Below, piece by piece: positions 18,097 to 64,000 of a stretch of DNA of 64,000 nt. Source of the stretch: Rhodoferax sp. (GTDB taxonomy: Bacteria > Pseudomonadota > Gammaproteobacteria > Burkholderiales > Burkholderiaceae_C); the NCBI RefSeq assembly GCF_013297935.1, contig NZ_JAAFIX010000001.1:248001-312000 (forward strand), in the 5' to 3' direction. The notes below the pieces were generated by a model. The model was not told the origin of the DNA, searched no databases, and saw nothing but the letters and a program-made list of their open reading frames with translations. The number at the start of each line of letters is the position of its first letter. Positions within the stretch are counted from its first letter, which is position 1. Position numbers and translations under genes: made by a program.

Positions 18097-18972
18097 ATGC
18101 CGCCCATGCCTTCCCAGCCCGCCCCGACCGCCGCCGCGCCCGATGTCGCCGTTCCTATCACCCACTACGAGAACTTTCCGGTGGCCTCGGTGCTCTGCCC
18201 CCCGCACCTGCGTGCACCCATCGCGGCGATTTACCACTTTGCCCGCACTGCCGATGACATTGCCGACGAAGGCAACGCCAGCCCCGAAGAGCGCCTGGCC
18301 GAACTCGCGCTGTTTCGCTCCGGTTTAGCAGCAGAGCCCGCCGCCCTCGCCCGCTGGCCGCAGGTATTTGGCCCCTTGCGAACCCAGCGCCAGGCCCATG
18401 GACTGCCGGACGCTCTCTTGCACGCCCTTCTGGACGCGTTTGTTCAAGACATTGAAAAAACCCGCGCCGCCACTGGCTACCGCAACCATGCGGAGCTGCT
18501 GGACTATTGCAGCCGCTCGGCCAACCCGGTGGGCCGCCTGTTGTTGCACCTCTATGGCGTGCAAGACGCCGAGTCGCTGGCCATGAGCGACCACATTTGC
18601 TCTGCGCTGCAACTCATCAATTTCTGGCAAGACCTGAGCACCGACATCCCGCGCGGCCGCTTCTACCTGCCGCAAGACGAATGTGCGCGCTTCAACGTCA
18701 CCCAAGACGATGTGCTGACCCAAAAAGACACTTCATCCACTATCAAATTAATAGCTGCTTGCGCAGACACCGCGAGGGCTCACATGCAAAGAGGTGCTGA
18801 ACTCGTGCACCGCCTGCCGGGCCGCGCCGGCTGGGAGCTGCGCCTGGTGGTGCAAGGCGGCCTGCGGATTCTGGACAAAATTGCCGCCATGGACCACCGC
18901 ACCCTGGAACGCCGCCCCAAGCTGTATGTATGGGACTACGGGGTGATGATCTGGCGGGCTTTGTGGATGTGA
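18097..18972 (+). CDS. hpnC: Squalene synthase HpnC (hopanoid pathway)
   Basis: A protein of about 291 residues of the squalene/phytoene synthase family. The first Asp-rich motif is FARTADDIADEG and the second is NFWQDLSTDIPRGRFYLP. In bacteria with hpnCDE, HpnC converts presqualene diphosphate to hydroxysqualene, which HpnE reduces to squalene. ATG codons at 18097 and 18106 are both possible; upstream codons lie in the promoter region. Residues about 215-228 (IKLIAACADTARA) are encoded by a copy of the window's 40-nt dispersed element, where relatives have an ordinary helix. hpnD follows after 221 bp. Confidence 0.88.
   Translation: MPPMPSQPAPTAAAPDVAVPITHYENFPVASVLCPPHLRAPIAAIYHFARTADDIADEGNASPEERLAELALFRSGLAAEPAALARWPQVFGPLRTQRQAHGLPDALLHALLDAFVQDIEKTRAATGYRNHAELLDYCSRSANPVGRLLLHLYGVQDAESLAMSDHICSALQLINFWQDLSTDIPRGRFYLPQDECARFNVTQDDVLTQKDTSSTIKLIAACADTARAHMQRGAELVHRLPGRAGWELRLVVQGGLRILDKIAAMDHRTLERRPKLYVWDYGVMIWRALWM
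18741..18780 (+). repeat. 40-nt dispersed element, copy A (inside hpnC, sense)
   Basis: The core runs from TATCAAATT through ATAGCTGCTTGCGCA to AGGGCT, exactly 40 nt. It is read through in hpnC, with codons starting at core position 2. It is one of the copies closest to the consensus. Confidence 0.85.
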
Positions 18973-19019
18973 ATGCAAGGCAATATTGCAGCTGCTGACT
19001 GCCACCTATGAACGCCCAT

Positions 19020-19119
19020 GCTGACAAGGGGCGGGCTGTGCGTTTTGCGTAGGTCAAGGAGGAGCCCGCGCAGCGGGCGGGGGACACGAAGCAAAGCGCA
19101 TTGCCCGCCTGTTGTCAGC
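19020..19119. repeat. Long inverted repeat between hpnC and hpnD
   Basis: Two 29-nt arms (19020-19048 and 19091-19119) are complementary at about 23 positions, sharing GCTGACAA, GGCGGGC and TTTGC blocks. Between them sits a smaller perfect hairpin, GCCCGC with GCGGGC (19064-19078). The whole can fold into a large cruciform or RNA stem in the 221-bp gap between hpnC and hpnD. It may be a REP-like element or an expression-control structure. Confidence 0.7.
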
Positions 19120-19193
19120 GCCACGTTATGAGCCGGAGAAGGGCACTCGCTGCGTCCAAAAACCAAAGCTCTGCCTCAACGACAATACCCACC

Positions 19194-20033: not shown

Positions 20034-20038
20034 ACATG

Positions 20039-20115
20039 GCCCCCACGCTCCACCGCTTCGCGGGTCGCTGCCCCCCAAGGGGGTGCGGCTCTCACCTCGA
20101 GGCGGCCCTGCGGTG
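20039..20115 (+). repeat. Dispersed GC-rich repeat, family 2, copy 1
   Basis: A 33-nt block (CCCCCACGCTCC, CCGCT, CGCGGGTCGCTGCCCCCC) starts 6 bp after the hpnD stop codon. It recurs with two substitutions at 52730, where it again follows a stop codon. Looser similarity continues through a GGCGGCCC stretch. Confidence 0.8.
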
Positions 20116-20160
20116 GAGCCCGGCCACCACGCCCCGCGGCGCTACGGCTATCGCTGGCCC

Positions 20161-21477
20161 ATGCGCGTAGCCATCGTCGGCGCCGGCTGGGCCGGCATGG
20201 CTGCGGCGGTTCGCGCAACGCAAGCCGGGCATCGCGCTATTGTTTTTGAAGCAGCCCGCGCAGTCGGGGGGCGGGCTAGAGCCCTCAACAGCACCTTACC
20301 CGATGGCAGACCGGTAGTGCTGGACAACGGCCAGCACATTTTGATCGGCGCCTACACCCGCACGCTAGAGCTCATGCGCACCGTAGGCGCAGACCCGGCC
20401 AGCCACCTGTTGCGCTTGCCGTTGGATTTGCGTTTTCCCGATGGCGAGGGCCTGTACCTCCCTGCGTGGCCCAGCCCGCTCGACGCACTGGCCGGCATGG
20501 CCACAGCACAAGGCTGGAACGGGCGCGACCGGTGGAGCCTGTTGCGCGCCTCGGTGGGCTGGCAACTCGCGGGTTTCCGGTGCGTGCCGGGCACCAGCGT
20601 GGCGACGTTGTGCCGCAGCCTCAGCCCCACCGTTATCGCCAGCCTGATTGACCCCCTGTGCGTGTCGGCCCTCAACACCCCGGCGGAGAGGGCCTGCGGT
20701 CAGGTCTTTTTGACCGTGTTGCGCGACTCGCTGTTCGGTGGCCGCGGCAGTTCCAACCTGCTGTTGCCCACCACCGATCTGGCCACCTTGTTTCCGGCCA
20801 CGGCAGCCCAGTGGCTGCACGCCCGGGGTGCAGAGCTGCGCACTGGGGCACGGGTGGCAGCCTTGCAAGTCGACGACACCGGTGGCCCCAACGGGCCACG
20901 CTGGCACGTCGATGGCGAAGCCTTTGACGCAGTGATTTGGGCCACTTCATGCTCCAATGCGGCGTCAGCCCTTACAGGTTCTTCGCAAGACGCTCCTGAA
21001 ACCATAGCAAACTCATTGCGTGCATGGGCCGGCACCGCCTCGGCCCTGCAGTTTGAGGCCATCGCCACGGTCTACGCCTACGCCCCGACTGCCGCTTTGC
21101 CCCGCCCCATGGTGGCTTTGCGCAGCGACGCGGCCCACCCCGCCCAGTTCGTGTTTGACCGGGGCCGGCTGGACGGCCAGCACGGCCTGCTGGCTTTTGT
21201 GGTGAGTGCCAGTGAAGGCGACAAAAGCGCCCTGGAGCACCAGGTGCTGAACCAGGCCCGCACCCAGCTGGGCCTGGAACTGGTGCCAGTGCAAACCGTG
21301 GTGGAAAAGCGCGCCACCTTCGCCTGCACGCCTGCAGTGCAGCGCCCGCCGCTGGCAATTGCGCCCGGACTGTGGGCCTGTGGCGACTATGTAGCAGGCC
21401 CCTACCCAGCCACCCTCGAAGGTGCGGTTCGCAGCGGCACAGATGCGGCAGCGCAATTAGGCAAGGCCGTGCACTGA
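20161..21477 (+). CDS. hpnE: Hydroxysqualene dehydroxylase HpnE (FAD-dependent)
   Basis: A 438-residue amine-oxidase/phytoene-desaturase-type flavoprotein. The N-terminal FAD site is VAIVGAGWAGMAAAVRATQAG, followed by VGGRARAL; the C-terminal FAD motif ends WACGDYVAGPYPATLEGAVRSG. HpnE reduces hydroxysqualene to squalene. The ATG at 20161 directly precedes the nucleotide-binding strand, as in the family. Residues about 269-282 (ALTGSSQDAPETIAN) come from an antisense copy of the 40-nt element and appear to be an insertion before the conserved ASALQFEAIATVY stretch. Confidence 0.9.
   Translation: MRVAIVGAGWAGMAAAVRATQAGHRAIVFEAARAVGGRARALNSTLPDGRPVVLDNGQHILIGAYTRTLELMRTVGADPASHLLRLPLDLRFPDGEGLYLPAWPSPLDALAGMATAQGWNGRDRWSLLRASVGWQLAGFRCVPGTSVATLCRSLSPTVIASLIDPLCVSALNTPAERACGQVFLTVLRDSLFGGRGSSNLLLPTTDLATLFPATAAQWLHARGAELRTGARVAALQVDDTGGPNGPRWHVDGEAFDAVIWATSCSNAASALTGSSQDAPETIANSLRAWAGTASALQFEAIATVYAYAPTAALPRPMVALRSDAAHPAQFVFDRGRLDGQHGLLAFVVSASEGDKSALEHQVLNQARTQLGLELVPVQTVVEKRATFACTPAVQRPPLAIAPGLWACGDYVAGPYPATLEGAVRSGTDAAAQLGKAVH
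20967..21006 (-). repeat. 40-nt dispersed element, copy B (inside hpnE, antisense)
   Basis: On the minus strand the core runs TATGGTTTC, AGCGTCTTGCG and AAGGGCT, 40 nt. It is read on the opposite strand by hpnE, with codons that are complements of core triplets 1-3, 4-6 and so on. Confidence 0.75.
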
Positions 21478-21567
21478 GCTCAGGCGCCCGGGAGACAAAT
21501 TGCGGGAAAACAGCAAGGCGCCGCGCTAGACTGATCACCGCGGTATTTGGAGACGATCTTGAAACTC

Positions 21568-24643: not shown

Positions 24644-24772
24644 AGAGCAGTTCGCGGCCGCATGGCAGCCGCCCTCAACAACAGAGAAAGGTGTGAGGGT
24701 ACACACAAAGCGTGCCGCACCGGCGCACCCGCGCAGCTACCATCAGGCTTATTGCTTTTTTATCCAGCCCCT

Positions 24773-25075: not shown

Positions 25076-25104
25076 TATCCCCTGTTCACGGACCCTTTTT
25101 CCCC

Positions 25105-26208: not shown

Positions 26209-26265
26209 CGAGTAAAGACAGTGTCGGTCCCCGGGTCGGCGTGCTGCATGGTGTCCAATAGCCCT

Positions 26266-26478: not shown

Positions 26479-26492
26479 ACCCGGAGATCTTT

Positions 26493-27131: not shown

Positions 27132-27153
27132 GACCTTTCAGGCCGGCGAGGGC

Positions 27154-31583: not shown

Positions 31584-31609
31584 AAAGCTGTGGCTCCCGC
31601 CACAGCTTT
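31584..31609 (-). terminator. Rho-independent terminator after tctA
   Basis: A perfect 11-bp stem AAAGCTGTGGC with GCCACAGCTTT around TCCC. On the minus strand it runs into a T-rich tail, 54 bp after the tctA stop codon. It ends the tctCBA transcript and directly abuts element copy C. Confidence 0.8.
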
Positions 31610-31611
31610 GC

Positions 31612-31651
31612 TATCTTTTCAGTAGCACCCAGCGCACATTTCATATGGGCT
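31612..31651 (+). repeat. 40-nt dispersed element, copy C (intergenic, modA/tctA)
   Basis: The core runs TATCTTTTC, GTAGCACCCAGCGCA and ATGGGCT, 40 nt. It lies between the tctA stop codon and the tct terminator, so it would be carried in the 3' end of the tct mRNA. Confidence 0.75.
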
Positions 31652-31662
31652 AGGTGCTGCTT

Positions 31663-33177
31663 TTATGCCAAAGTCGCCTGCACGGCAGCCTTCTTCTGAA
31701 AATGTTTCAATACCCGTGGCAGGACCAGCACGCTGAGTACCACTGCCAGCAAAGTCACCGACATCGGGCGCTGCAGGAAGATCATGGCACTGCCCTCACC
31801 AATGGACATGGCGTTGCGCAGCTGCGCTTCCGCCAAGGGCCCCAGAATCATGCCCACGATCACTGGCGCCGTCGGGAAGCCGAAGCGCCGCATGACCAGC
31901 CCGAGTACGCCCACCACATACAGCAACACCAAGTCAAACGCGCTTTGGCGCATGCCGTAGGTACCCACCGTGGCGAAAATCAGAATACCGGCATACAGCT
32001 GCGCCTTGGGAACTTTGAGCAGCTTCACCCACAGTCCCACCATCGGCAGGTTAAGGACCAGCAGCATCACGTTACCGATGAACAGCGACGCAATCAAGGC
32101 CCAGACCAGCGCGGAGGAGCTGGTGAACAGCTGCGGTCCGGGTTGAATTCCGTAGTTCTGGAAAGCACCTAACAGCACTGCCGTGGTGTTGGACACCGGG
32201 ATACCCAGTGTGAGCAAGGGAATCAGCGCGGTGGTCACCGTAGCGTTGTTGGCGGCTTCGGGACCGGCTACCCCTTCAATCGCACCGGTGGTGCCGAATT
32301 CAGCGAGGTCGTCGCCTTTGGCCAGCTTCTTTTCTGCTGCATAGCTCAAGAAAGTCGGTATCTCCGTGCCACCAGCAGGAATACAACCGAACGGTGCACC
32401 AATTGCGGCCCCCCGGAGCCAAGCGGGAATCGAGCGCTTCCAGTCTCTGGCCGTCATGGTCACACGACTGAGCTTGTTTTCGCTCTCTTTGACCTTGCCT
32501 TCAAACAGCACGAAGTGCAAGGCCTCGGCCACCGCAAACAGACCCACGGCGACCAACACTATCTCGATGCCGTCCAGCAGTTCCGGCATATTGCCGGTGT
32601 AACGCGCCTGCCCGGTGATCTGGTCCATACCGATCAGACCGATCGACAAGCCCAGAAACAAGGCGGTCAAGCCCCGCAAGGTGCTCTGACCCAAGACCGC
32701 GCTCACTGTCGTGAAGGCCAGCAACATCAGGCAGAAGTACTCAGGCGGGCCCAGCTTGACGGCGTATTCAGCGACCAAGGGAGCAAACAAGGTCACGACC
32801 ACGGTCGCGATACTTCCGGCCACAAACGAGCCGATGGCAGCAGTGGCCAGCGCGGCCCCCGCACGACCACTCTTGGCCATCTTGTTGCCCTCCATCGCAG
32901 TCACCATGCTGGAGGTTTCTCCGGGGGTGTTCAACAGAATGGAGGTGGTGGAGCCACCATACATGGCGCCGTAATAAATACCGGCGAAAAAGATCATTGA
33001 GGCCGTGGCCTCGACCTGGGTGGTGATGGGCAGCAACATAGCCACCGCAGTGGCCGGGCCGATGCCTGGCAGCACACCGACAGCCGTGCCCAAGGCGCAG
33101 CCGACGAAGGCCCAGAGCAGGTTCACCGGCGTACCTGCCGTGGCGAACCCTTGAAGGAGTTGATTCCAGATTTCCAT
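31663..33177 (-). CDS. tctA: Tripartite tricarboxylate transporter large permease TctA
   Basis: A 504-residue protein with about 11-12 membrane segments. The duplicated family motif appears as [19 protein letters not shown] and [20 protein letters not shown], and [19 protein letters not shown] follows. It forms the channel for citrate-like acids with TctB, fed by TctC. The ATG overlaps the tctB stop codon (TAATG), showing coupled translation. Confidence 0.95.
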
Positions 33178-33686
33178 TACAGCCATCCACTTTGCGTCAA
33201 ACCTGGCAAGCTGATGGCCAGAAACTTGGTAAACATCCAGTACACCGGCGCAGCGATCAAAACGCCCACCACTGCATCATTGATCCACGACTTGCGCCCT
33301 CCGGCCGGCTGGCCCTGCGCCAGGCGAGCGCCCCGCGCTGCCAGCACAAAACAAATAGCGCAGCTGAAGATAAAACCGATGGTGGTGATCAAGGCCGCGT
33401 TGACCAGCAAGCCGACTGACATCCAGATAAATCCGGGCCAGAAGGCGGGCTGGCCGTCTTCGTCTTCTTCCATGTCGAGAAAGCCGCCCCTACGGACTTC
33501 CCACAGCATGAAGCCGCCGCACAAACACAGCGCAATAGATACCACCCACGGAAGAAAGTCAGGGCCGATACCGGCGTAACCCGCTTCCGAAGGAATAATC
33601 CACGCCCCTGCCCCCAGGCCGAGGCCCAGAAGCAGAACCCCGAAGGCGACAGCGGCTTCCTGCCGCGCTTTCACGACCTGTTGCAT
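33177..33686 (-). CDS. tctB: Tripartite tricarboxylate transporter small permease TctB
   Basis: A 169-residue protein with four predicted membrane segments (AVAFGVLLLGLGLGAGAW, LPWVVSIALCLCGGFML, then two more after an acidic cytoplasmic loop, DMEEDEDGQPAF). This layout is typical of TctB. It is coupled at both ends: its ATG overlaps the tctC stop (TGATG) and its stop overlaps the tctA start. Confidence 0.92.
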   Translation of the reverse strand: MQQVVKARQEAAVAFGVLLLGLGLGAGAWIIPSEAGYAGIGPDFLPWVVSIALCLCGGFMLWEVRRGGFLDMEEDEDGQPAFWPGFIWMSVGLLVNAALITTIGFIFSCAICFVLAARGARLAQGQPAGGRKSWINDAVVGVLIAAPVYWMFTKFLAISLPGLTQSGWL

Positions 33687-42937: not shown

Positions 42938-42942
42938 ACTGC

Positions 42943-42982
42943 TACTTTTTTGATAGCTGCTTGCGCATATATCTAGAGGGCT
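42943..42982 (+). repeat. 40-nt dispersed element, copy D (intergenic, tolA/dnaE)
   Basis: The core runs TACTTTTTTG, ATAGCTGCTTGCGCA and AGAGGGCT, 40 nt, with TGC before it and GGCGC after it. It occupies the convergent gap between tolA and dnaE. Its sense frame contains a TAG, unlike the coding copies. A small hairpin (AGAGGGC with GCGCTCT) overlaps its end. Confidence 0.85.
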
Positions 42983-43003
42983 GGCGCTCTCTTTGGTACT
43001 AAT

Positions 43004-46000: not shown

Positions 46001-46573
46001 CAGCTTCATGCGGGCAGCCAGCTTGACGGCCGCCACCACATGCGCCTCGTCGTCGGTGCGACCGGCGCGCTGCAGCTCCATGTAGAAGCGGTGCGGAAAC
46101 ACACCCGCGAGCTGCAAAGCCACATCGTGCGCGCGGGCGGTGTCGCCCTGCACCAGGGCTTGGCCCACGGGGCCTGCCTGTGCGCCTGCGAGCGCAATCA
46201 GGCCTTCGTGAAGCTCTTTCAGCCATGCCAGCTTGACCACTGCCTGGTTTTTGACCACGTTCTGGGTAAAGGCCCGCGCAATCAGCTCCGACATATTCAG
46301 GTAACCCTGCATGTTCTGCACCAGCAGAATGATGCGGGTCACCGCCGTGGGGTCGCCACCCAGCCCTTCGAGAATGATTTCGGCCCCGATCACCGGCTTC
46401 ACCCCCTTGCCCCGGCCGCCCTTGTAAAACTTGATGGCGCCAAACAGATTGTTCAGGTCGGTGATCGCCAGCGCGGGTTGCCCGTCTTTGGCAGCCAATT
46501 TAATGACATCGTCAATACGATTGGTTCCGTCAACGACAGAAAACTCGGTGTGAAGGCGCAGGTGTACAAACAT
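43004..46573 (-). CDS. dnaE: DNA polymerase III alpha subunit
   Basis: A 1189-residue replicative polymerase starting MFVHLRLHTEFSVVDG at 46573. The N-terminal PHP domain opens with HLRLHTEFS. The polymerase catalytic Asp pair is Asp405 and Asp407 in MPDFDIDFCQ, and VGPGRGSGAGSLVAYAL lies before it. The C-terminal part holds the OB fold and tau-binding region. It synthesises chromosomal DNA within the Pol III holoenzyme. It is transcribed alone, convergent with tolA and divergent from the small gene at 46679. Confidence 0.97.
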   Translation of the reverse strand: MFVHLRLHTEFSVVDGTNRIDDVIKLAAKDGQPALAITDLNNLFGAIKFYKGGRGKGVKPVIGAEIILEGLGGDPTAVTRIILLVQNMQGYLNMSELIARAFTQNVVKNQAVVKLAWLKELHEGLIALAGAQAGPVGQALVQGDTARAHDVALQLAGVFPHRFYMELQRAGRTDDEAHVVAAVKLAARMKLPVVATHPIQFTGPEDFEAHEARICIADGEILSNPKRVRRFTREQYFKTAEQMEALFADIPSAIANTLEIAKRCSLTLVLGKPQLPAFPTPLVDGQRMTPEEYFRYASFEGLKERMVHLYPNEQEREAEMPRYVERLEFELGTILKMGFPGYFLIVGDFINWAKNNGCPVGPGRGSGAGSLVAYALKITDLDPLRYNLLFERFLNPERVSMPDFDIDFCQTNRNLVIDYVKDKYGKDAVSQIATFGTMAARGVVRDVGRVLDMSYTFCDGISKLIPNKPGTNVTLQLPPTDGKKSDKYVYATEAEPILAEREAKEEDVKTLLEMARKLEGMTRNIGMHAGGVLIAPGKLTDFCPLYQQPGSESAVSQYDKDDVEAIGLVKFDFLGLATLTILEIAAEFIRKRHPGQEKFAYENLPLDDAKVYKLFSEGKTEAVFQFESRGMQGMLRDAKPSRLEDLIALNALYRPGPMDLIPSFVARKHGREVVEYPHPAVAEMLSETYGIMVYQEQVMQTAQILGGYSLGGADLLRRAMGKKKKEEMDEHRGIFRAGAFKTHGIPEEKADEVFDLMEKFAGYGFNKSHAAAYSLLAYHTGWIKVHYTAEFFCANMTVEMDDTDKLKVLFEDAEKMGLSFEPPNINRGFYRFEPISNKEIRYGLGAIKGTGEQAILAIVAAREGRGPTEEAGPFKSLFDFARRVDRSRLNKRCVEALIKAGAFDTLHLNRAELVASMDRAFEFAAASAANANQHGLFDMGGDDDHGSSTQEPDLVEVTPWGVKERLTQEKTAVGFYLSGHLFDEVATEVRKFARRPIEEIKDSREPQLLAGIVTELRVINGQRGKLALFKLDDKSAMIEARASEAILNTYKEFLKDDELIIVEGKAMPDRFSGGMQLTVQQVWSLEQARCKFGKYLRVPVKLDAQGRAPDVAALVREFPAVREETEHGELVRGLSVRLQLVCSATEGGTTELAGADLHLGDAAKFYPTDAALASWRAQASGGLAAIAYD

Positions 46574-46678
46574 CGGTCCATTGTAGTTTTTGATTGCCGC
46601 TCGCTGGACGGGTACGGGCTCTGTCAGCGACAATCCCTCGCTGCCGCTTGCAGACCCGCCCTCCCAAAAAACCACCTT

Positions 46679-47891: not shown

Positions 47892-48710
47892 CTAGCGCAT
47901 GACCACCGGCATGCCGCTGGCCCAGCCCGCCTTCTGAAGCCACGCAAAGACCGAGTCCACCGTGACGGTTTCAATCCGGTCTGCATAGCGCTTTTCATCC
48001 GGATGGTCGTCAAACGCCACATTGGCCTTGGTCATGCGCGCCCCCAAGCGAACCAAGGGCGTGATCGTCAGGGTTGTAGGCTGGTAGGCGGAGCGCTGCA
48101 GCCACGCTTGCGCCTGAGCGCGATCGGTCACCGGCGCGGCACTGCCGGCGGTGACGGCATAGGCCAGTGTTTCAATCGCCCACTGGTTGCTCTGCTGGTA
48201 CTTGCCGGACCACGGGTAACTCACCATGCTGTAGCGCGGATGGTGCATCGCCAGCGATTGCTGCGGGTCCTGCAACAACTTGAGCATGGCGGTCTGGGCC
48301 GGCAGGCTGAGCGGCATCCACGCCGCTTCGTACTGCCAAAGATCGTCCAGAAAAAACTCGCCAAGGCCTTGCCGGTAAATGGCGGACTCTGCCGTGCCGC
48401 ACAGGTTGAGCTTGTGCAGTACCCGCCACACATGGCTGCCATCGGACTGGTCTTGCCGGTACACAAAGCCAAGGTGCGAATAGCGCACCCCGTATTTGCT
48501 CAGGTCCTGCCCGGCGCGCGCCATGAGCACCACCTTGGCACCGCTCGCATCGAGCGCTTGCAGCGTCTTCCACGCCAGCGTCAGGGACTTGTCGACGGTT
48601 TCGGGCTTCAAGTCCTGCGGCTCGCCACAGGGGCGCCCCGCATGCGCCAGGCCCGCGGCCGCCACGCCGAGCACGAACAGCCAACGCACGCCGGAAATCG
48701 GGACACTCAC
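47892..48710 (-). CDS. DUF2145 family exported protein
   Basis: A 272-residue protein starting with a GTG at 48710 that overlaps the stop codon of the upstream gene (GTGA). The signal peptide (VRWLFVLGVAAAGLAHA) is cleaved before GRPCGEP. The mature protein contains LDASGAKVVLMARAGQDLSK, GVRYSHLGFVYRQ, and LNLCGTAESAIYRQGLGEFF, which fit my recollection of DUF2145. A His and two Cys in conserved positions suggest a papain/NlpC-like hydrolase, but that is inference. It is translationally coupled to the small exported protein upstream. Confidence 0.8.
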   Translation of the reverse strand: MSVPISGVRWLFVLGVAAAGLAHAGRPCGEPQDLKPETVDKSLTLAWKTLQALDASGAKVVLMARAGQDLSKYGVRYSHLGFVYRQDQSDGSHVWRVLHKLNLCGTAESAIYRQGLGEFFLDDLWQYEAAWMPLSLPAQTAMLKLLQDPQQSLAMHHPRYSMVSYPWSGKYQQSNQWAIETLAYAVTAGSAAPVTDRAQAQAWLQRSAYQPTTLTITPLVRLGARMTKANVAFDDHPDEKRYADRIETVTVDSVFAWLQKAGWASGMPVVMR

Positions 48711-49156
48711 CGGCTGACGCGCTCGTTGTGCAGCAGGGCTTTGCCGATCTCGTTCGGTATGAACGCAATCACCTTGCCCGCCACCGACAGCACCACACCC
48801 GTGGTGATCACGCTGACAAACACAACCGTACCCACTGCCGCAGACGCGCCCGCGGCCACCTTGCCCGAAACTTCGACGCTGGCACGCGCGCCATCCGACA
48901 TGCGCTCCAACACATAGACCGTGCCCTTGGCAGAGGCCTCCACCGTTTTCACCACTAGCACAGCACCGGCGGTAGAAAAAGCCACCGGAATGGCGATCGC
49001 GGCACCCGCGCTGGCACCCACGACCGAGGCCACCGGCATCGCGCTGATGGCACTCAAGGCCGAGGCATCGGTTTGCGAATAGGCATGAAAAGGCATTGCA
49101 GCCCCCGCCAATATTGCGCAAGAAGCTATGAATTTAGTAGCAAAGCGAGTGGTCAA
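48707..49156 (-). CDS. Small exported hypothetical protein with repeat-derived signal peptide
   Basis: A 149-residue protein. Residues 1-28 are a signal peptide ending in AMPFHAYSQ. Its hydrophobic core (FATKFIASCAILAGAAM) is encoded by a sense copy of the 40-nt element. The mature part is Ala/Val/Ser-rich with hydrophobic stretches (VVGASAGAAIAIPVAFSTAG; VGTVVFVSVITTGVVLSVAG) and no Cys, suggesting a small membrane-associated or glycine-zipper-like protein. It overlaps the DUF2145 gene and is its operon partner. Function unknown. Confidence 0.75.
   Translation of the reverse strand: MTTRFATKFIASCAILAGAAMPFHAYSQTDASALSAISAMPVASVVGASAGAAIAIPVAFSTAGAVLVVKTVEASAKGTVYVLERMSDGARASVEVSGKVAAGASAAVGTVVFVSVITTGVVLSVAGKVIAFIPNEIGKALLHNERVSR
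49100..49139 (-). repeat. 40-nt dispersed element, copy E (signal peptide of 48707-49156, sense)
   Basis: On the minus strand the core runs TACTAAATTC, ATAGCTTCTTGCGCA and GGGGGCT, 40 nt. It is read in the same phase as the sense copies in hpnC and trmB. Most of the signal-peptide core is encoded by it. Confidence 0.85.
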
Positions 49157-51688: not shown

Positions 51689-52729
51689 ATGACAACATCC
51701 CGACATATTGCAATCGTGGGCGCCGGCATGGCCGCCATCGCCTGCGCGCGTACCCTGGTGCAGGCCGGTCACACGGTCACCGTGTTTGAAAAAAGCCGGG
51801 GGCCCGGCGGGCGCATGTCCACCCGTGAAAGCGCCTTCGGCACTTTTGACCATGGGGCCCAGTACTTCACCGTGCGCGATGCGCGCTTTACCCAAGCCCT
51901 GCAAACCACACCCGGCCTGTGCCGCCCCTGGAGCGCCAACACTGTGCGCGTGCTCGACTCCCACGGCCGCGTAGCCGCCGCTGCCTTGCCCGGCCGCGAC
52001 GCCCACTGGGTGCCCGCACCCGGCATGAACGCGCTGTTGCGCGCCTGGGCCAAACCGCTGATGGACGCCGGCCAGCTGCTGGCCAACACAAGGGTCACCG
52101 CCCTGGAACAAGATTCCCTGCACAAAAAGAAATGGCAGTTGCGCACCTCGGGTGAGGCTGGCACTCACCACGTCTATGGCGGTTTTGACGAAGTCATTCT
52201 GGCCATTCCCCACCCCCAAGCCCAAGAGTTGCTGGCCACTACGCCCAAGGGCGCCGCGCTGGCCAAGAAAACATCCAAAGTCTCTGTCGCCCCCTGCTGG
52301 ACCCTGATGCTGGCCTACCCCCAGGCGGTACAGCCCGGCCTCACCACCTTGGGCCCCCAATGGAACGCTGCCCGCAGCACCCACCACCGCGTGGCATGGC
52401 TGTCGCGCGAATCGAGCAAACCCGGCCGCGGCAAGGTTGAGCGCTGGACTGTGCAGGCCAGCGCCGCCTGGTCGCAGGAGCACTTGAATGACTCTTCTGA
52501 CCGCATTCAGGCCAAGCTCATCAAGGCGTTTGCCGAAATCACCGGCATCCGCGCCGAGCCCGCCCATGTGCAGGTGCACCGCTGGCTCTATGCCAAAACC
52601 GAAACCCCTTTGGGCGAGGCATTTCTCTGGGACCGCAAGTCCGGCCTCGGCGTGTGTGGCGACTGGTGCATCGGCCACCGGGTGGAAGACGCATTTATTT
52701 CGGGACTCGAACTCGCACTGGCAATTTAG
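51689..52729 (+). CDS. FAD-dependent NAD(P)-binding oxidoreductase, renalase-like
   Basis: A 346-residue flavoprotein starting [20 protein letters not shown] at 51689. The FAD dinucleotide site is followed by [16 protein letters not shown] and [12 protein letters not shown], the pattern of renalase-type amine-oxidase relatives. The C-terminal FAD motif is [20 protein letters not shown]. The substrate is unknown. It follows the LysR gene by 62 bp on the same strand, and repeat family 2 begins right after its stop codon. Confidence 0.85.
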
Positions 52730-52832
52730 CCCCCACGCTCCGCCGCTCCGCGGGTCGCTGCCCCCCGCACGGAAGGGTGCATCAGGCCCCGGGGCCTTCG
52801 CGCCTTGGGGCGGCCCGGCGGCGCTCACGCCA
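52730..52832 (+). repeat. Dispersed GC-rich repeat, family 2, copy 2
   Basis: Starting one base after the TAG of the oxidoreductase gene, 33 nt match the block at 20039 with two substitutions. Both then show a GGCGGCCC stretch further on. The segment fills the gap to gluQ. Confidence 0.8.
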
Positions 52833-52845
52833 GAATATCTTCCCC

Positions 52846-53814
52846 ATGTACAGAGGTCGTTTTGCCCCCTCTCCCACGGGCCCGTTGCATGCGGGCTCTT
52901 TGCTTGCTGCCCTTGCCAGCTGGCTGGATGCACGCGCCCACGACGGGCAATGGCTGGTGCGGATTGAAGATGTCGACACCCCGCGATGCGTGGTGGGCGG
53001 CGGCGAATTCATCCTGCACCAACTCGCCAGCGTGGGATTGCTGCCCGACGAGCCCCCGGTCTGGCAAAGCCAGCGCAGCGGCCTTTACCGCGCCGCACTG
53101 GACCACTTGACCGGCAGCGGGCTCGCCTACCCGTGTGCCTGCTCCCGAAAAGACATTGCCGAGGTACTGCAACAGCTAGGCAGTGGCAAGCCACGGCACG
53201 GGGAACTCGTCTACCCCGGCACCTGCCGCTCGGGCCTGCAGGGCCGTGAGGGACGCGCCTGGCGCTTGCGCACCGATGCCGAGAAATTAGTGCCAAAAAC
53301 CGCTCCAACCCATACAGAATATGCGTATACAGCTCCTGATTTAATAGCAAACACAGAGCAAAATGGGTGGTGGACTTGGCACGACCGCAGGCTTGGCTGG
53401 CAACAGCAGCAGCTCGCCCACGAGGTGGGCGACTTTGTGCTGCTGCGCGCTGACGGGCTGTGGGCCTACCAACTGGCCGTGGTGGTGGACGATGCGGACC
53501 AAGGCATCACCCACATCGTGCGGGGCGAAGACTTGGCCGACAACACAGCCCGCCAGATCGCCCTGCAAAGCGCCTTGGGCCTGCCCACGGTGCAGTACCT
53601 GCACACGCCCTTAGAGTTGGGCGCCAACGGCGAGAAACTCAGCAAACAAAACGGGGCCACTGCGCTGGACCTGACAGACCCGCTGGCGGCACTTCAGCGC
53701 GCCGCTACAGCATTGGGTTTGCACCGAACGGCAGGTGATGTTTCGTCATCCCTCGCGCTTTGGACCGACGCATGGCGCGACCTCTGGTGCCTGGGGACAA
53801 GGCCGGGCCGCTGA
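52846..53814 (+). CDS. gluQ: Glutamyl-Q tRNA(Asp) synthetase
   Basis: A 322-residue GluRS-like protein without an anticodon-binding domain. The HIGH-like motif is [20 protein letters not shown] at the N-terminus, the zinc site includes CACSRKD and YPGTCRSG, and the KMSKS-like motif is [10 protein letters not shown]. It attaches glutamate to queuosine at position 34 of tRNA-Asp. The start at 52846 is fixed by the N-terminal motif. Between AWRLRT and WHDRRLGW the protein carries extra residues (154-167, [17 protein letters not shown]) encoded by antisense copy F of the 40-nt element. Confidence 0.92.
53307..53346 (-). repeat. 40-nt dispersed element, copy F (inside gluQ, antisense)
   Basis: On the minus strand the core runs TATTAAATC, GAGCTGTATACGCA and TATGGGTT, 40 nt, flanked by TTTGC. 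It is read through by gluQ in the same phase as copies B and I, and is the most diverged at the GGGCT end. Confidence 0.7.
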
Positions 53815-53820: not shown

Positions 53821-54042
53821 TCATGCTGACGATGCCCGCAATCTGTGTGAGGACTCGTTGATGCCCTCCACGGTGTTCACCACGGCGGTGAGCTCTTCCA
53901 TGGAAGCCGCGGTCTGCTCCAGAGCACTGGCGTTGGACACGTTGACCGCCACCTCGCGCACGGATGACGCCGTGTGGTTCAGCCCTACCCGAATCACTTG
54001 CAAGGTGTCTTGCAACAAGCCAAAACTATCGTTAGCCCCTCG
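53821..54042 (-). pseudogene. Remnant of a methyl-accepting chemotaxis protein
   Basis: A minus-strand fragment of about 65-72 codons reads NDSFGLLQDTLQ (HAMP end), then ASALEQTAASMEELTAVVNT, which is the start of a chemoreceptor signalling domain. About 30 residues normally found after MEELTA are missing. After INESS a one-base shift would restore QIAGIVSM, the usual next stretch. The fragment then runs into the end of gluQ. It has no start or signalling tip and cannot be functional. Confidence 0.7.
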
Positions 54043-54119
54043 TGAAGAGGGACGTGGGTGGCCAGGTCAGTAGGCCGGACTGCCTACAATGCAGGCCCCG
54101 CCCACGTGTAGCCGTTGCC

Positions 54120-54920
54120 ATGACGAACCCAAACCCTTCCCTGCCCGAAAACCCCGAAACCCCTGCCACGCCTGAAGAGGCCGCCAAGCCCTTTATGCGC
54201 ACCATCAAAAGCTTTGTCAAACGCGCAGGCCGCATGGGCGGTGGGCAGGAGCGCGCCATGGCCGAGTTGGGGCCGCAATTTCTCTTGCCCTACACACCCT
54301 CTGCTATCAATTTCGAAGCTGTCTTCGCAGGCGCTGTGGGGGCTACCGGCACAAATGATGCGCCAACTCCGGCCCAGCGTCCAGTGGTACTTGAAATCGG
54401 TTTCGGCATGGGTGAAGCCACTGCGCAAATTGCTCTCACGCTGCCGGGCACCAACTTCCTGTGCTGCGAGGTGCATGAGCCGGGTGTGGGCGCGCTGCTC
54501 AAGCGCATCGGTGAGCACAACATTTCCAACATCCGCATTTGCAACCACGACGCGGTGGAGGTCATCGACCACATGCTGCCCCTGGACTGTCTGGATGGTG
54601 TGCACATCTTCTTCCCCGACCCTTGGCATAAAACCAAGCACAACAAGCGCCGCTTGATCCAGAGCCCGCTGGTGGCCAAGCTGGCCGCCCGCTTGAAACC
54701 CGGCGGCTACCTGCACGCCGCCACCGACTGGGAGCCCTATGCCCAGCAGATTCTGGAAGTGCTCAGCGCCGAGCCCAAGCTCAAAAACCGCGCCTTGGCC
54801 TCCCACCCCCAACTGGCCGGCTACGCCCCCAAACCCCACTACCGCCCGCTGACCAAGTTTGAAAACCGGGGCATCAAGCTGGGCCACGGCGTGTGGGACG
54901 TGGTGTTCGAGCGCATTTAA
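54120..54920 (+). CDS. trmB: tRNA (guanine-N7-)-methyltransferase
   Basis: A 266-residue SAM-dependent methyltransferase. The SAM-binding motif is [17 protein letters not shown] and the family signature is [18 protein letters not shown]. The C-terminal motif is [17 protein letters not shown]. It makes m7G46 in tRNA. The start MTNPNPSLP at 54120 gives the usual N-terminal extension. Residues 62-75 ([13 protein letters not shown]) come from sense copy G of the 40-nt element and lie in the loop before the first strand of the methyltransferase fold. Confidence 0.93.
54305..54344 (+). repeat. 40-nt dispersed element, copy G (inside trmB, sense)
   Basis: The core runs TATCAATTTC, GAAGCTGTCTTCGCA and GTGGGGGCT, 40 nt, preceded by CTGC. 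It is read in the same phase as copies A and E. Confidence 0.75.
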
Positions 54921-54936: not shown

Positions 54937-55851
54937 GTGCAAGCGCCCGCCCACCAGGTGTCGCCCGCCCGGCAAGGGGTACGTCCCAGCTGCGTGGTGG
55001 TGCAGGCCCACAGCGGCGCCACCCTGCTGGAGTTTTTATGCCAGCGCTTTACGGCCGTGCCTGCGGCCACCTGGCAGGCCCGACTGGAGGCCGGCGACAT
55101 CACTGACGCGCAGGGCCTGACCGCACGCGCCACTGATGCGGCCACACCGGGCCGGCGCTTGTATTACTTTCGCGATGTGCCGGACGAGACGCCCATTCCA
55201 TTCACCGAAACCGTGCTCTGGCACGACGCCCACTTGCTGGTCGTCGACAAGCCGCACTTTCTGCCCGTGGTGCCCAGCGGCAAACATGTGCGCGAAACCC
55301 TGCTGGCACGCCTGCAACACCGGTTGGCATTGCCGGAGCTGTCGCCCATCCACCGCATTGACAAAGACACAGCTGGCTTGGTCATGTTCTCAGTGCAGGC
55401 CGCCAGCCGCAATGCCTACCAGGCCCTGTTCCGCGACCGGCTGGTGCAAAAAACTTATGAGTGCATCGCCCCGTGGAACCCCGATCTGCCGTGGCCGCTG
55501 CACCGCGAAAGCCGCATCGGCGACGCTGAGCATTTCATGCAACAAGCCGAGGTGCCCGGTGCGGTAAACGCCATCACCGACATCGCCCCGCTGGAGGTGC
55601 ACGGTGCCTGGGCTCGCTACCAGCTGCGCCCGCTCACCGGCCAGCGTCACCAGCTGCGCGTGCACATGCACGCACTGGGCCTGCCGCTGCTGCATGACGG
55701 CATTTACCCGGTGCTCACCCCCGAAGGCGCCAACGACTACCGCCGCCCGCTGCAACTGCTGGCCCGCAGCCTCGCCTTCACCGACCCGCTGAGCGGCGCC
55801 CACCGCAGCTTTGAGAGCCAGCGCACCTTGCTCGCGATGGAAAATTTTTAA
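54937..55851 (+). CDS. RluA-family pseudouridine synthase
   Basis: A 304-residue protein with a GTG start at 54937. The catalytic motif is HRIDKDTAGLVMF, with Asp as nucleophile (usually HRLDRDT). Further landmarks are LLVVDKPHFLPVVPSG and LRPLTGQRHQLRVHMHALG. It isomerises uridine in rRNA or tRNA; the position is uncertain. It follows trmB by 16 bp, so the two RNA-modification genes are probably cotranscribed. Element copy H lies between it and the convergent HD-GYP gene. Confidence 0.9.
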   Translation: MQAPAHQVSPARQGVRPSCVVVQAHSGATLLEFLCQRFTAVPAATWQARLEAGDITDAQGLTARATDAATPGRRLYYFRDVPDETPIPFTETVLWHDAHLLVVDKPHFLPVVPSGKHVRETLLARLQHRLALPELSPIHRIDKDTAGLVMFSVQAASRNAYQALFRDRLVQKTYECIAPWNPDLPWPLHRESRIGDAEHFMQQAEVPGAVNAITDIAPLEVHGAWARYQLRPLTGQRHQLRVHMHALGLPLLHDGIYPVLTPEGANDYRRPLQLLARSLAFTDPLSGAHRSFESQRTLLAMENF

Positions 55852-55864
55852 GAAATAGGCCGCT

Positions 55865-55904
55865 AGCCCCTTGATATATTGGGTACCCAGCTATAGAAAC
55901 AATA
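55865..55904 (-). repeat. 40-nt dispersed element, copy H (intergenic)
   Basis: On the minus strand the core runs TATTGTTTC, ATAGCTGGGTACCCA and AAGGGGCT, then AGCGGCC. It lies in the convergent gap between the pseudouridine synthase and HD-GYP genes. Confidence 0.75.
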
Positions 55905-55910
55905 GCGGAT

Positions 55911-58823
55911 TCAGGCTGAAGCAGACGGCAGCAAGGCTTCGATGGCGGCTACATCCACTGCATCACACTGGGCGGCTTGCATAAATTGCTCGGCAAAAGT
56001 ACGCCACACACCGCTGTGCAAAAAGTAGCGGAACAAAGTCGCATCGATATGCTGGTCCTTCGCCATGAAGGCCATGATGCGCAAGGACTCCGAGAGCGTT
56101 TTGGCACTCTTGTAGGGCCGGTCGGCCGCAGTCAGGGCTTCAAAGATATCGGCAATCGCCATCACCCGATCCGGCAGGGTGAGCTGCCCGGCCGAGAGTT
56201 TGCGCGGGTAGCCCTGGCCATCCATCTTCTCGTGGTGATTGGCTGCGATATCCGGCACGCGTGCGAGGTGCTTGGGCCACGGCAGGCTGCGCAGCATGAG
56301 CAGGGTTTGGACAATGTGATCGTTGATCTTGAAACGGTCTTCCTCGGTCAGCGTGCCACGGCGGATTCCCAAGTTGTAGAGCTCGCCCATGTTCTGCGCA
56401 TGCGCCGGTAGGCGCATGTCAAAGCCATGGGTGTTGGCCGGGTTGTCTTTCTCCACCGCCGGGGTGCGCGCGCCCCAGGCCACGAGGTGCTCTGGCCCGT
56501 CACTCAGCAGACGCTCAGGTGCCGGTAGCTCGCTCCCGGCGGCCCCCATGCGCCGCAGCTCCTCACCCGAGAGACCCGCGCGCTTGTCGAAATGGCGTAC
56601 CCACACGGTTTCGCTGATCTGACGCAAACGGGCTAGGTCCGCATCGGCCATGAACTCGCCCCCCAGATTGCAACGCGCCACGAAGGCAAAATCGTCCAAC
56701 AACTGCGCGCGCGTGGTCTCCAACACCCGGGCCGCATGAGCCTCATCCGCCCCCGCGAGCACCGACTGCAGTGACGAAATCTCCGCATCACGCCACAACA
56801 CTTCAAAGCGCATGCGCACCTCGTGAATGCGGTTGTAAATCACCTCCAGCTTGGTCGCTTTATCGATGATGTGCTCGGGGCTGGTAACTTTTCCGCAGTC
56901 ATGCAACCACGCGGCAAGGTGGAATTCGTACCGCTGCTCTTCGTCGAGCACAAAGCTGGCATACGGGCCGTCCTGCTCGGCAGCCAACCGGTCCACCAGC
57001 ATGCCGGCGAGCCGCGGCACCCGCTCGCAGTGCCCTCCGGTGTAGGGGCTTTTGGCGTCAATGGCATTGGCCATCAGGCGGATGATGGCGTCGAGCAATT
57101 CCTTTTGCGATGCCAACAGTTGCCGTGTCTCAATGGCCACCGCCAGACTGCCCGAGAGCTTGCGCACGAAGTCGGTAAACGCGGGTGCGGCGTGTCGTGT
57201 GTCGCCTGCGTGCTGCACGACGAGCAGGCCTTCCAACCCGCCATTGCGACCCCGCAACTCTTGCTGAAAGACGGCGCCGCCTGAGGCCACAGGGCGCGAA
57301 GTTCCATCGGGGCTTTGACCCGGCACATAGTCCATCGACTCTTGCGCAAACCCGTCTACCGCGGCGGTGCGGGCTGCACATTCCATGCGCCCGGTGCAGG
57401 CGTCCCACAAGTACACGGCGCCACCACTGCAGCGGGTGGCATGCACCAACTGATCCAGCACGCCAGACAGCATGGCCTCCATCTGGCGCTCGGTACCCAT
57501 GGTGTGGCTCAGGTTTAAGAAGGTCTGAATAGTCTCGCCAGTGTCCTTCAAGGCGGCAGCCAGCCGGTTCACCTCCAGCACCCAGCTGTGTTGCTCCGGT
57601 CCGTCCTGAAAATCAAAGCCCACCATGCGCGCAGACTTGTGGGTCAGTTGGTCCAGGCTGCGCCCTATGGTGGCCCCGACCAGCCAGCCCACCGGCAACA
57701 AGGCTAGCACCAGCATCAAAATCAAAATCCCCAGCTTGCGACGCTTCTGACGTAAATCGCCCAGCAGATCGTCACTGGGCGCCGTGATCAGCAGACGGTG
57801 CACTTCACCATGCCAACCCTCAAAAGGCAGTACGACCCCTAGCCACTCCTGGCCCTCCACATCAAACAGCGCCACATCGCCATGGGGGGGCTGCAGGTCG
57901 AACAAGGCCGCTAACGCAGGCACTCCGATGGCATTGACGCCCGCAAACGTGAGCTGATCCCCCTCCTGGCGCACTACTTTGCCCATCTCAGGGTAGACCA
58001 GGACGGTGCCGGCTTGGTCTACCAATGCCAGCTCAGCGTGAGGCGACATGCGCAGGCTTTCCATGCCTTTTGCCAAGTCATCCAAGACCACATCAATACC
58101 CAGCACTACATCAGCGGCCGGGCTGCCCCGGCTCATGGTCAGGCCAATCTGGCGGCTGGAGAAGAAAACATACGGCAAGGACGTCTGGGTGGTGGAGCTG
58201 TTGATCGCTTCCTTGAACCAGCCGCGGGTGCGCGGATCGAACTGGTAGTCAGGCATAGGGCGGCGCTGCACTAGTTTCAACGAGGCTGTATAGAACAGAT
58301 ACTCACCCTGCACCTGCCCCGACCTGGTGCGCTGCACACTCTGCACCAGGAAATTGGACATGGGGGGGGCCTGGAAGCGTGCCCGCACTTGGGGTGCATC
58401 CAAGGGCCTGACCATGAAAAAATCCCCGCTCGCATAACCTGCATAGATCGCCGAAGTCAGTGGGTTGCTGGTTAACACCTCCACCATGGTCGGCAAGCGC
58501 TCCAGCCTCTGCTCCAAGTTGCTTGCCGTGGTGAGTGAACTGGTTGACAGCAGATTCAACGTGACCTGGGCGGGCTCTAGCAAGCGATACGACTTTTCAG
58601 TGATCAGCTTGCCTGCATCGGCTGCACTTCTGGACGCGGTATCGAGCAAGCTCTGACGTGCACCTTGCCACCCCACCGCGATGATCAGCGCCGCCAAAAT
58701 CAACATCGACAACACCACTGCGGAAGCAATGGACAAGCGTATGGGCCAGCCTCCCGGCATGCGCCCAAGCGCTGATTCAGATATCCGGGTGGTCCCGGAC
58801 TGCGTAGTTATAGAGTCCCGCAT
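55911..58823 (-). CDS. Membrane sensor with GAF-like and HD-GYP domains
   Basis: A 970-residue protein. Membrane segments near residues 27-50 (SIASAVVLSMLILAALIIAV) and 360-385 (GILILMLVLALLPVGWLVGA) enclose a periplasmic sensor of the dCache type (FDPRTRGWFKEAINS is typical). A HAMP-like linker, a GAF-like domain (about 440-570) and a C-terminal HD-GYP domain follow. The last has HDCGK and HHEKMDGQGYPRKL intact, plus an unusually long insert between them (about residues 640-800). It probably breaks down cyclic-di-GMP in response to an extracellular ligand. It is transcribed alone. Confidence 0.88.
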   Translation of the reverse strand: MRDSITTQSGTTRISESALGRMPGGWPIRLSIASAVVLSMLILAALIIAVGWQGARQSLLDTASRSAADAGKLITEKSYRLLEPAQVTLNLLSTSSLTTASNLEQRLERLPTMVEVLTSNPLTSAIYAGYASGDFFMVRPLDAPQVRARFQAPPMSNFLVQSVQRTRSGQVQGEYLFYTASLKLVQRRPMPDYQFDPRTRGWFKEAINSSTTQTSLPYVFFSSRQIGLTMSRGSPAADVVLGIDVVLDDLAKGMESLRMSPHAELALVDQAGTVLVYPEMGKVVRQEGDQLTFAGVNAIGVPALAALFDLQPPHGDVALFDVEGQEWLGVVLPFEGWHGEVHRLLITAPSDDLLGDLRQKRRKLGILILMLVLALLPVGWLVGATIGRSLDQLTHKSARMVGFDFQDGPEQHSWVLEVNRLAAALKDTGETIQTFLNLSHTMGTERQMEAMLSGVLDQLVHATRCSGGAVYLWDACTGRMECAARTAAVDGFAQESMDYVPGQSPDGTSRPVASGGAVFQQELRGRNGGLEGLLVVQHAGDTRHAAPAFTDFVRKLSGSLAVAIETRQLLASQKELLDAIIRLMANAIDAKSPYTGGHCERVPRLAGMLVDRLAAEQDGPYASFVLDEEQRYEFHLAAWLHDCGKVTSPEHIIDKATKLEVIYNRIHEVRMRFEVLWRDAEISSLQSVLAGADEAHAARVLETTRAQLLDDFAFVARCNLGGEFMADADLARLRQISETVWVRHFDKRAGLSGEELRRMGAAGSELPAPERLLSDGPEHLVAWGARTPAVEKDNPANTHGFDMRLPAHAQNMGELYNLGIRRGTLTEEDRFKINDHIVQTLLMLRSLPWPKHLARVPDIAANHHEKMDGQGYPRKLSAGQLTLPDRVMAIADIFEALTAADRPYKSAKTLSESLRIMAFMAKDQHIDATLFRYFLHSGVWRTFAEQFMQAAQCDAVDVAAIEALLPSASA

Positions 58824-58860
58824 GATTCCCCCGGCTCGCTGTTATTGAGCAAGGGTAAAT

Positions 58861-58877
58861 CATTTGTAAAACAAATG
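58861..58877. promoter_or_regulatory. Palindrome upstream of the HD-GYP sensor gene
   Basis: CATTTGT-AAA-ACAAATG is a perfect 7-bp inverted repeat, 38 bp upstream of the HD-GYP start codon and 22 bp after the rhomboid stop codon. It could be an operator or a short stem; no T run marks it as a terminator. Confidence 0.35.
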
Positions 58878-58898
58878 CTTACGTTTAAACGGTACGCG

Positions 58899-59966: not shown

Positions 59967-59971
59967 TCGCT

Positions 59972-62831: not shown

Positions 62832-62867
62832 AGGCAAGGATGGCTCAGGGGCTCGGTGGGTTCAGGC

Positions 62868-64000
62868 TCAAGCGCTTAGTTCTTTGGCGCTGATTTGGTA
62901 CTTGAAGTCGTCCGGCGCGTAAGAGTCGAGGCGACCGGCTGCGGTTTCTGCGGCGGGGTACATAAAAAAGCCCAGCTTGGGGCCGCTGGACTGGGGCAGC
63001 ACCACATCGTGGGCCACGTTGTAGGCCATCCAGTTACCTTCCCAGCCCCCAAACAGGCCCTTGTTCACCGGGGCCACCAGCGGGTTGCTGGCGGACTTGA
63101 TCCACTCTTGGGTCTCCTGGCGCATGACCTTGGCCACGTCGGCCGGGTCCATGCCCACCCAGCCGTAGCCTTTGAGGTAGACCTCGGCACGGCAGTGCTG
63201 CGCACCCTTGAGGCTGGCCGAGTTGCCGCCCAGCTCGCGGTAGCCGAAGGCGCTAGGCGCCACGCGCAGGCCATACACATCGCGCGCGGGCACGCCAACG
63301 GCGCGGCACAGGCCCACAAACAAGGCGTTCAGGTCGGCGCACTTGCCGCCCAGGTTGTTGGTCTCCAGCATGGTTTTGATGTCGCCCTCGCCGCAGCCGC
63401 GCACTTTGGGTTCGCGGAAGGTGTTGGTCACGATCCAGTCGTAAATCTTTTGCACCTTTTCCACATCGGTCTTGGCGCCACGGGTGGCCTCTTGGGCGGT
63501 GGTGCGCACAATGCCGTCCATCGGCAACAAATCGGTAGGCTGGGTCCAGAACTTCAGGGTGGCGGCGTCTTCGGCCACCGCAGTCTTCTGGCTCCAGTCC
63601 TGGGCGCGGCTGCGGGTGCGGATGCGGCTGGTCAGCTCCACAAAGGGTTTGGCCTGGTCAGCGGCAAAATCCACAAACAACATGCGGGCGCCGGTGGTGT
63701 TGTCGTCTTCCATGCGGGCGGTGCCGTTGCTGGAGTAGCTGCTCTCCAGCGACTGCTGCCAATCGCTGTTGACTGAAGGCACGGGCAACCACAGGCGGGT
63801 GCCGCCTTGGGGCTTGGCCATATCGACGCGGGTGGTGACTTCAAAGGTGCGCCATTCGGCGGGCTTGGGGCTGAACTGGCGTGTGGCCACAGGCACTGTT
63901 TGTGCAAAATTGATAGTAGGTAGCGCAGTACCTACGAGGGCTAGAGCCGAATTTCGCATAAATTTGCGGCGCGCAGACGAAGCGGTGGCGCGGGTGGCTG
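62868..64000 (-). CDS. Tat-exported transglutaminase-like protein, N-terminus cut by window edge
   Basis: The frame stays open from the right edge, so the start codon may lie outside the window; an internal ATG at 63959 is available. Upstream of that ATG the frame reads ASSARRKFMRNSALALVG, a twin-arginine signal (RRKFM), so the edge-crossing reading is preferred. The mature part has the transglutaminase-core Cys in LGGKCADLNALFVGL (207 codons after the internal ATG), His in GAQHCRAEVYLKGYGW and Asp in MDPADV. It is probably a periplasmic protease or transglutaminase-like enzyme. The signal-peptide core is encoded by element copy I. pabB-pabC follows 37 bp later. Confidence 0.85.
   Translation of the reverse strand, partial: ATRATASSARRKFMRNSALALVGTALPTINFAQTVPVATRQFSPKPAEWRTFEVTTRVDMAKPQGGTRLWLPVPSVNSDWQQSLESSYSSNGTARMEDDNTTGARMLFVDFAADQAKPFVELTSRIRTRSRAQDWSQKTAVAEDAATLKFWTQPTDLLPMDGIVRTTAQEATRGAKTDVEKVQKIYDWIVTNTFREPKVRGCGEGDIKTMLETNNLGGKCADLNALFVGLCRAVGVPARDVYGLRVAPSAFGYRELGGNSASLKGAQHCRAEVYLKGYGWVGMDPADVAKVMRQETQEWIKSASNPLVAPVNKGLFGGWEGNWMAYNVAHDVVLPQSSGPKLGFFMYPAAETAAGRLDSYAPDDFKYQISAKELSA
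63903..63942 (+). repeat. 40-nt dispersed element, copy I (signal peptide of the right-edge gene, antisense)
   Basis: The core runs TGCAAAATTG, ATAGTAGGTAGCGCA and CGAGGGCT, then AGAGCC. The gene reads its complement, giving ALALVGTALPTINFA, the hydrophobic core of a Tat signal peptide. Confidence 0.8.

Follow-up and report, generated by a model that had tools for sequence, protein, structure and literature searches.

A 69-bp DNA motif dispersed at hundreds of places in Rhodoferax genomes, with species dialects and a possible role as a self-DNA mark

REP sequences are moved by RAYT (Y1) transposases. Uptake sequences have been described for the Pasteurellaceae and Neisseriaceae (PMC7811141), and the sections of two papers drawn on here report that DUS are conserved, occupy permissive sites in the core genome, occur in dialects, and are absent from recently acquired genes (PMC2397512, PMC3630211). 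USS, according to the passages cited, are thought to accumulate by molecular drive (PMC7811141). The present study concerns a longer dispersed motif in a Rhodoferax genome, first noticed in a window of 64,000 nt, by which we mean the whole stretch of DNA that was analysed. A search of open-licence papers for the motif, its strings, and repeats or uptake sequences of the Comamonadaceae or Burkholderiales yielded no description among the titles listed, and the first-pass annotation of the window had likewise known no published name for it.

That annotation reported nine diverged copies of a rigid core, 40 nt from its first T to the end of GGGCT. Each of the nine was found in its place when the window sequence was checked, and all have the 40-nt core, with the copy at 53307 ending in GGGTT. 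The estimate of about 57 nt for the whole unit did not hold: column statistics on 34 copies show information reaching from 17 nt before to 51 nt after a central TAGCTG, so that the unit measures about 69 nt, from ATTTGCTA to TTAAAT, and 69 nt is also the commonest spacing between orthologous flanks, which bears out the rigid length. A weight matrix of 69 columns was seeded with 31 copies (starting model R1, for which L001 and two window copies were left out of the 34) and then refined with 400 kb from each of four genomes. In the window this matrix finds 11 copies, the nine reported and two others, whereas 15 Markov-simulated windows gave zero matches at 8, 10 or 12 bits. The window copies are listed below, with the first-pass position in brackets after the strand.

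16815-16883, plus strand (absent from the first-pass list): motif copy, 36.3 bits; antisense, in the 3' part of an HlyD-type gene (about 16782-17948, minus; Pfam).
18735-18803, plus strand (18741): motif copy, 49.9 bits; sense, within hpnC, in a gap-free alignment with 15 homologs.
20232-20300, plus strand (absent from the first-pass list): motif copy, 29.4 bits; sense, in the part of an hpnE-like amine oxidase gene (about 20113-21477, plus; Pfam) that encodes the FAD-binding N terminus.
20944-21012, minus strand (20967): motif copy, 42.7 bits; antisense, in the hpnE-like amine oxidase gene (about 20113-21477; Pfam).
31606-31674, plus strand (31612): motif copy, 53.4 bits; overlaps a tctA-type gene (31663-33186, minus; Pfam) by the 12 nt at its end.
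42937-43005, plus strand (42943): motif copy, 60.1 bits; fills the gap between convergent genes at 41936-42937 (plus) and 43004-46675 (minus), from open reading frames.
49077-49145, minus strand (49100): motif copy, 59.9 bits; spans the start of a DUF2145 gene (47892-49121, minus; Pfam), the frame open and signal-peptide-like.
53284-53352, minus strand (53307): motif copy, 58.5 bits; antisense to the GluQ-RS gene (52654-53814, plus), within a loop of greater length in carriers, as orthologs show.
54299-54367, plus strand (54305): motif copy, 46.3 bits; sense, within a trmB-like open reading frame (54042-54920, plus), near its N terminus and ahead of the Pfam domain.
55842-55910, minus strand (55865): motif copy, 41.1 bits; between convergent genes at 54937-55851 (plus) and 55911-58823 (minus), from open reading frames.
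63897-63965, plus strand (63903): motif copy, 41.9 bits; at the 5' end of a transglutaminase-type gene (62868-63959, minus; Pfam).

Directly ahead of the copy at 31606, a terminator-like stem lies at 31586-31607; the stem is without counterpart in relatives G007 and G034, and both have the motif. Where the motif lies over gene starts (window 49077-49145; L162-L163 region, G034 block 276975), the open frame is signal-peptide-like (IASCAILAGAA, LIAACAHSMGA), the second peptide being one that we take to resemble a lipobox, and the motif may supply secretion signals at such starts.

The motif is a dispersed 69-bp DNA sequence with hundreds of copies per genome. With at most two mismatches allowed, the core pattern (TAGCTGCTTGCGC N11 GGGCT) is found 251 times in the 3.61-Mb genome and its reversed form once; the dispersed family of the first-pass annotation is real. 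Matrix scans of 400 kb per genome returned 64, 69, 66 and 64 copies of at least 20 bits in the own genome and three relatives, while simulated DNA gave 0 matches even at 8 bits; the figure of about 580 copies per genome is an extrapolation from the 400-kb scan, and matrix scoring of genome-wide candidates took in 150 of 1596. By our arithmetic, some 13.6 bits would be enough for about 580 sites, whereas the motif holds 55.6 bits across its 69 columns, far above any uptake motif known to us.

The 64 copies in 400 kb of the own genome comprise 32 on each strand, 29 in predicted genes and 35 between genes, as called with a simple purpose-made script. Copies are spaced more evenly than random in four genomes (coefficients of variation 0.80, 0.78, 0.67 and 0.79 against 0.97-0.98 in simulations; p = 0.041, 0.024, 0/2000 and 0.029), the four tests not being independent owing to common ancestry. 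Inside genes, 24 of the 29 copies are confined to two of the six possible frames. The genes concerned, whose names we partly presume from their Pfam families, include hpnC, the hpnE-like oxidase (two copies), gluQ-RS, trmB-like, mutL (two), coaBC, argF, miaA, comEC (two) and an amidase. In comEC of the own genome (L124:4223-6724), each Pfam domain concerned has about 20 extra residues; in G020 (C257:215-1404), the first 170 and last 228 residues of comEC stand side by side, and the close relative G001 has a full-length match. MutL bears, in addition, a linker peptide at residues ~445-466 (L130), VKGEPAQRAEDTEQSAQPLSRL, which recurs in G007 block L137:14635-14700 with 82% identity over 22 residues; residues 422-519 have many short matches in several carriers, and the linker peptide is a second dispersed coding repeat.

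Sense and antisense orientations are equally frequent within genes (13 and 16 copies), which counts against the reading that the copies are hairpins in RNA or cruciform DNA, whether terminators, processing sites or REP-like targets, kept by selection on their pairing, while a slight sense bias in co-directional gaps of the own genome (15 vs 8) leans towards it, as do the imperfectly complementary arms and a core altered on both sides in the three G046 matches listed. We consider this reading highly improbable and rejected it: none of four genomes shows an outstanding covariation diagonal, the consensus fold is weak (-1.4 kcal/mol), and at the Rfam gathering score no family matches the motif in the window, where the matches are four tRNAs only. 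A RAYT transposase was also rejected as agent, in that PF01797 does not follow copy number: one weak match turned up in the own genome, none in carriers G031, G043, G051 and G060, and one or two in non-carriers, and such genes are mostly single whether the genome is a carrier or not.

Constraint on the copies was read from orthologs. Across six genome pairs, mismatch in the 14 high-information columns was 0.095, 0.061, 0.071, 0.030, 0.036 and 0.042, against 0.278, 0.244, 0.251, 0.180, 0.176 and 0.237 in the low-information columns of the same pairs (Wilcoxon p 1.2e-5 to 1.9e-3), from 14 to 28 copies per pair and 132 of 146 in all, the other 14 having been dropped for flank identity below 0.6. 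The contrast holds between genes (0.086 core, 0.265 low-information) and within them (0.067 and 0.255), both figures without the flank filter. Flanks of orthologous copies mismatch at about 0.19, and copies are kept in place while their flanks diverge. The variable loop mismatches at 0.27 between orthologs and 0.62 between unrelated copies; copies are thus not replaced wholesale, and we discarded wholesale gene conversion among them on this ground. In four genomes, all 116 in-gene copies outscore the best of 500 synonymous recodings, which places the constraint on the DNA. The suggestion that selection acts on the structure of the unit is right as to constraint, but the constraint seen lies on sequence, and the arms do not covary.

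The spelling of the motif differs between species, giving dialects. Column 42 is G in 57 of 64 own copies and C in 62 of 69 copies in G007 and 57 of 66 in G034; among orthologs of the own genome and G007 or G034, with a locus possibly counted twice, 33 of 42 pairs are G-C, four G-G, four C-C and one T-C. In G001 the column is split (27 G, 34 C), so that this genome is apparently caught mid-switch. In G026, 76% of 51 copies read T at column 27, G046 reads TTGAGC...GCTCT and G338 and G131 read TTAGGC with an altered right arm, the latter two dialects among the places listed. Polaromonas (20 copies) and Acidovorax (7 copies) have distinct consensus sequences after removal of exact search-pattern matches, as obtained from 60 of 80 loci listed.

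Core-pattern matches occur in 62 of 101 genomes searched, with high counts in same-genus genomes only: 0 to 398 in 61 genomes of the genus and at most 3 in 40 from other families. Across the family a related pattern is patchily distributed, with matches in 104 of 299 genomes and 63 of 141 genera, and exact matches among the records listed come from Rhodoferax, Polaromonas, Acidovorax, Paenacidovorax, Diaphorobacter, Ottowia, Variovorax, Giesbergeria and Curvibacter, so the first-pass statement that Comamonadaceae have similar sequences proved sound. Low pattern counts accompany clear dialects of their own in G338, G131 and G046, and near-zero counts elsewhere may therefore partly reflect unseen dialects; 20-kb pieces of G018, G032, G014 and G028 contained no copies by matrix scan. 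In a midpoint-rooted tree of one locus of about 1 kb, non-carriers fall at two places among carriers, a placement that fits repeated loss so far as this locus goes.

Copies could have been inserted or could have formed in place, and the comparison of orthologous loci bears on this directly. Per direction, 32 to 52 of the 64 to 69 copies have both flanks mappable to a relative; most sites are filled, and most mappable copies are common to orthologous positions in species about 80% identical in DNA. The first-pass annotation had proposed such a comparison to define the ends of the unit and any target duplication; no target duplication appeared among the junctions listed. Clean empty sites were set aside, several 'empty' cases among those listed being alignment shifts with the motif present, although some intergenic sites do lack the motif in one relative. 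A check for terminal repeats and target duplication showed a weak near-dyad layout and no clean junction among the sites listed.

In protein alignments, HpnC of the own genome and 15 homologs have zero gaps at the motif. MutL and CoaBC, chosen for Pfam matches without excess length, were compared with 12 relatives, namely five carriers and seven genomes with 0 to 3 pattern matches. At MutL residues 109-131, carriers score 57.1, 51.7, 45.8, 52.6 and 43.2 bits (own 54.9) and the seven non-carriers -24.2 to 13.0; the highest of these, G035 (13.0) and G004 (4.5), may be remnants or precursors of the motif. Eleven of the 12 alignments are gap-free there, and one has a single-residue gap. At CoaBC residues 254-276, carriers score 46.0 to 68.6 bits (own 56.3) and the seven non-carriers -46.5 to -28.5, with all 12 alignments gap-free. 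Thus the motif stands at the same codons in all six carriers, none of the seven near-zero-copy genomes reaches 20 bits at either site, and alignment with solved MutL and CoaBC chains shows no gap at the motif sites. MutL has another copy in its linker, found in six of six carriers and none of the seven others, with 0 to 7 gap columns, and another ungapped site scores 33.8 bits in G007, 40.2 in G001 and -5.3 in the own genome. The gapless alignments mean that the copies in MutL and CoaBC formed by substitution: the motif there arises and decays by point substitution, and repeated spread of a single unit, as first proposed, is unsupported as a general rule.

We had at first favoured insertion as the general origin, on the strength of a GluQ-RS loop about 25 residues longer in carriers, and dropped it after the gap-free results for HpnC, MutL and CoaBC. 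Insertion-like change is possible at some sites, for example this loop and the segments with excess length relative to relatives or the Pfam model (two in ComEC, and those in MiaA and a SpoU methylase). Such sites, the intergenic sites empty in one relative, and an information content beyond the need of a binding site would all suit an old mobile or palindromic unit that inserted widely, in frame in genes, with its core kept for the host and the MutL and CoaBC sites recruited later. Besides the gapless sites, this history has against it the lack of excess domain length at HpnE, ArgF (three extra residues against a solved chain) and HAD, the lack of target duplication or a clean junction among the sites listed, and the fact that no associated transposase was found, and we judge it improbable.

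The motif is likely a self-DNA mark recognised by some putative protein. In several traits the motif follows the DUS pattern: it is dense on both strands, its copies form in place and are evenly spaced, and its core is conserved while its spelling varies by dialect. On these grounds our best explanation, offered tentatively, is a mark read by a putative DNA-uptake receptor, with biased uptake and recombination as the leading candidate for the drive. One trans-acting recogniser would account for the copies, their geometry, the constraint and the dialects; biased uptake followed by homologous recombination would draw each site to the current consensus; non-carriers would have lost the recogniser, after which their sites would have eroded; and recombination with motif-carrying DNA is a possible route to length gains of the GluQ-RS type. 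We would not file the motif as a DUS or USS, the defining property of which is enhanced uptake.

The evidence against the uptake explanation is real. ComEC was found in most carriers searched, but in carrier G026, 99% complete, neither family nor protein search found it, and the ComEC of carrier G020 consists of residues 1-170 and 606-833 only; a ComEC match is retained in seven of seven non-carriers tested, and the ComP_DUS family has no association with copy number, so that we abandoned both as predictors of carriers for want of a clean association. The copies in G026 retain a clean dialect of their own, and the decay that might accompany loss of ComEC was unseen, the median being 48.7 bits, compared with 54-58 in the four genomes used to refine the matrix. 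Depletion in non-syntenic DNA was not significant, 85 kb of it having 10 copies and 315 kb of syntenic DNA 54 (p 0.36), and the excess implied by 55.6 bits and the insertion-like sites also weigh against uptake. Among database records unsorted by carrier status, one typed consensus has matches in five of 72,556 plasmid records and in none of 50,697 from phages.

The persistence of copies in G026 is better suited to the main rival, in which a chromosome-structuring or segregation protein, or a DNA-wrapping complex, would bind the motif about every 6 kb, with ordinary selection on each site and a dialect that follows changes in the protein. Even spacing, equal strands, DNA-level constraint in and outside genes and conserved blocks in a near-dyad layout all accord with such a site. 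A concerted base at most orthologous sites, as at column 42, would however demand selection on each of hundreds of them, 55.6 bits is much for one protein, and non-carriers of the same genus manage without the motif; we regard this rival as less likely than uptake. Returning to the uptake explanation, its full form, which we advance with still greater reserve than its outline, is that the motif may be a third, independently evolved bacterial self-DNA code: a 69-bp composite of more than six helical turns, with Comamonadaceae dialects, that overwrites mutL and coaBC codons and would be maintained by biased uptake and recombination via a putative receptor.

If true, a third case of uptake sequences with a far longer motif would make molecular drive and selection directly testable against each other, in a system missing from part of a single genus and apparently mid-switch in G001. 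Were the reader instead a chromosome-structuring protein, the motif would be, to our knowledge, the most information-rich dispersed site of that sort. On either reading, DNA-level constraint has reshaped codons of core genes, and in CoaBC also amino acids, which matters for the inference of protein selection in these bacteria.

Set beside the known systems, the motif resembles REP sequences in being an imperfect palindrome dispersed in hundreds of copies, and differs from them in that its arms do not covary, PF01797 is untied to copy number, and 29 of 64 copies lie in genes. The palindromic elements of Rickettsia, as described in the part of the source used here, similarly maintain an open frame within unrelated genes on either strand, but they are inserted units, whereas the motif is present in MutL and CoaBC without insertion (PMC10969869). 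The USS of the Pasteurellaceae, in the passages cited, share with it a core with conserved AT-rich neighbours at a fixed distance and hundreds to thousands of copies; they are much shorter, poorer in information with scores of about 10-12 bits, and are spaced at about 1 kb, compared with about 6 kb for the motif (PMC7811141). The likeness to the DUS of the Neisseriaceae, in the sections of the papers drawn on, extends to many copies on both strands in and between genes, conservation against diverging flanks, dialects, and permissive places in the core genome; DUS measure about 10-12 nt and are depleted in newly acquired genes, whereas the motif spans 69 nt with about 56 bits and is not significantly depleted in non-syntenic DNA (PMC3630211, PMC2397512).
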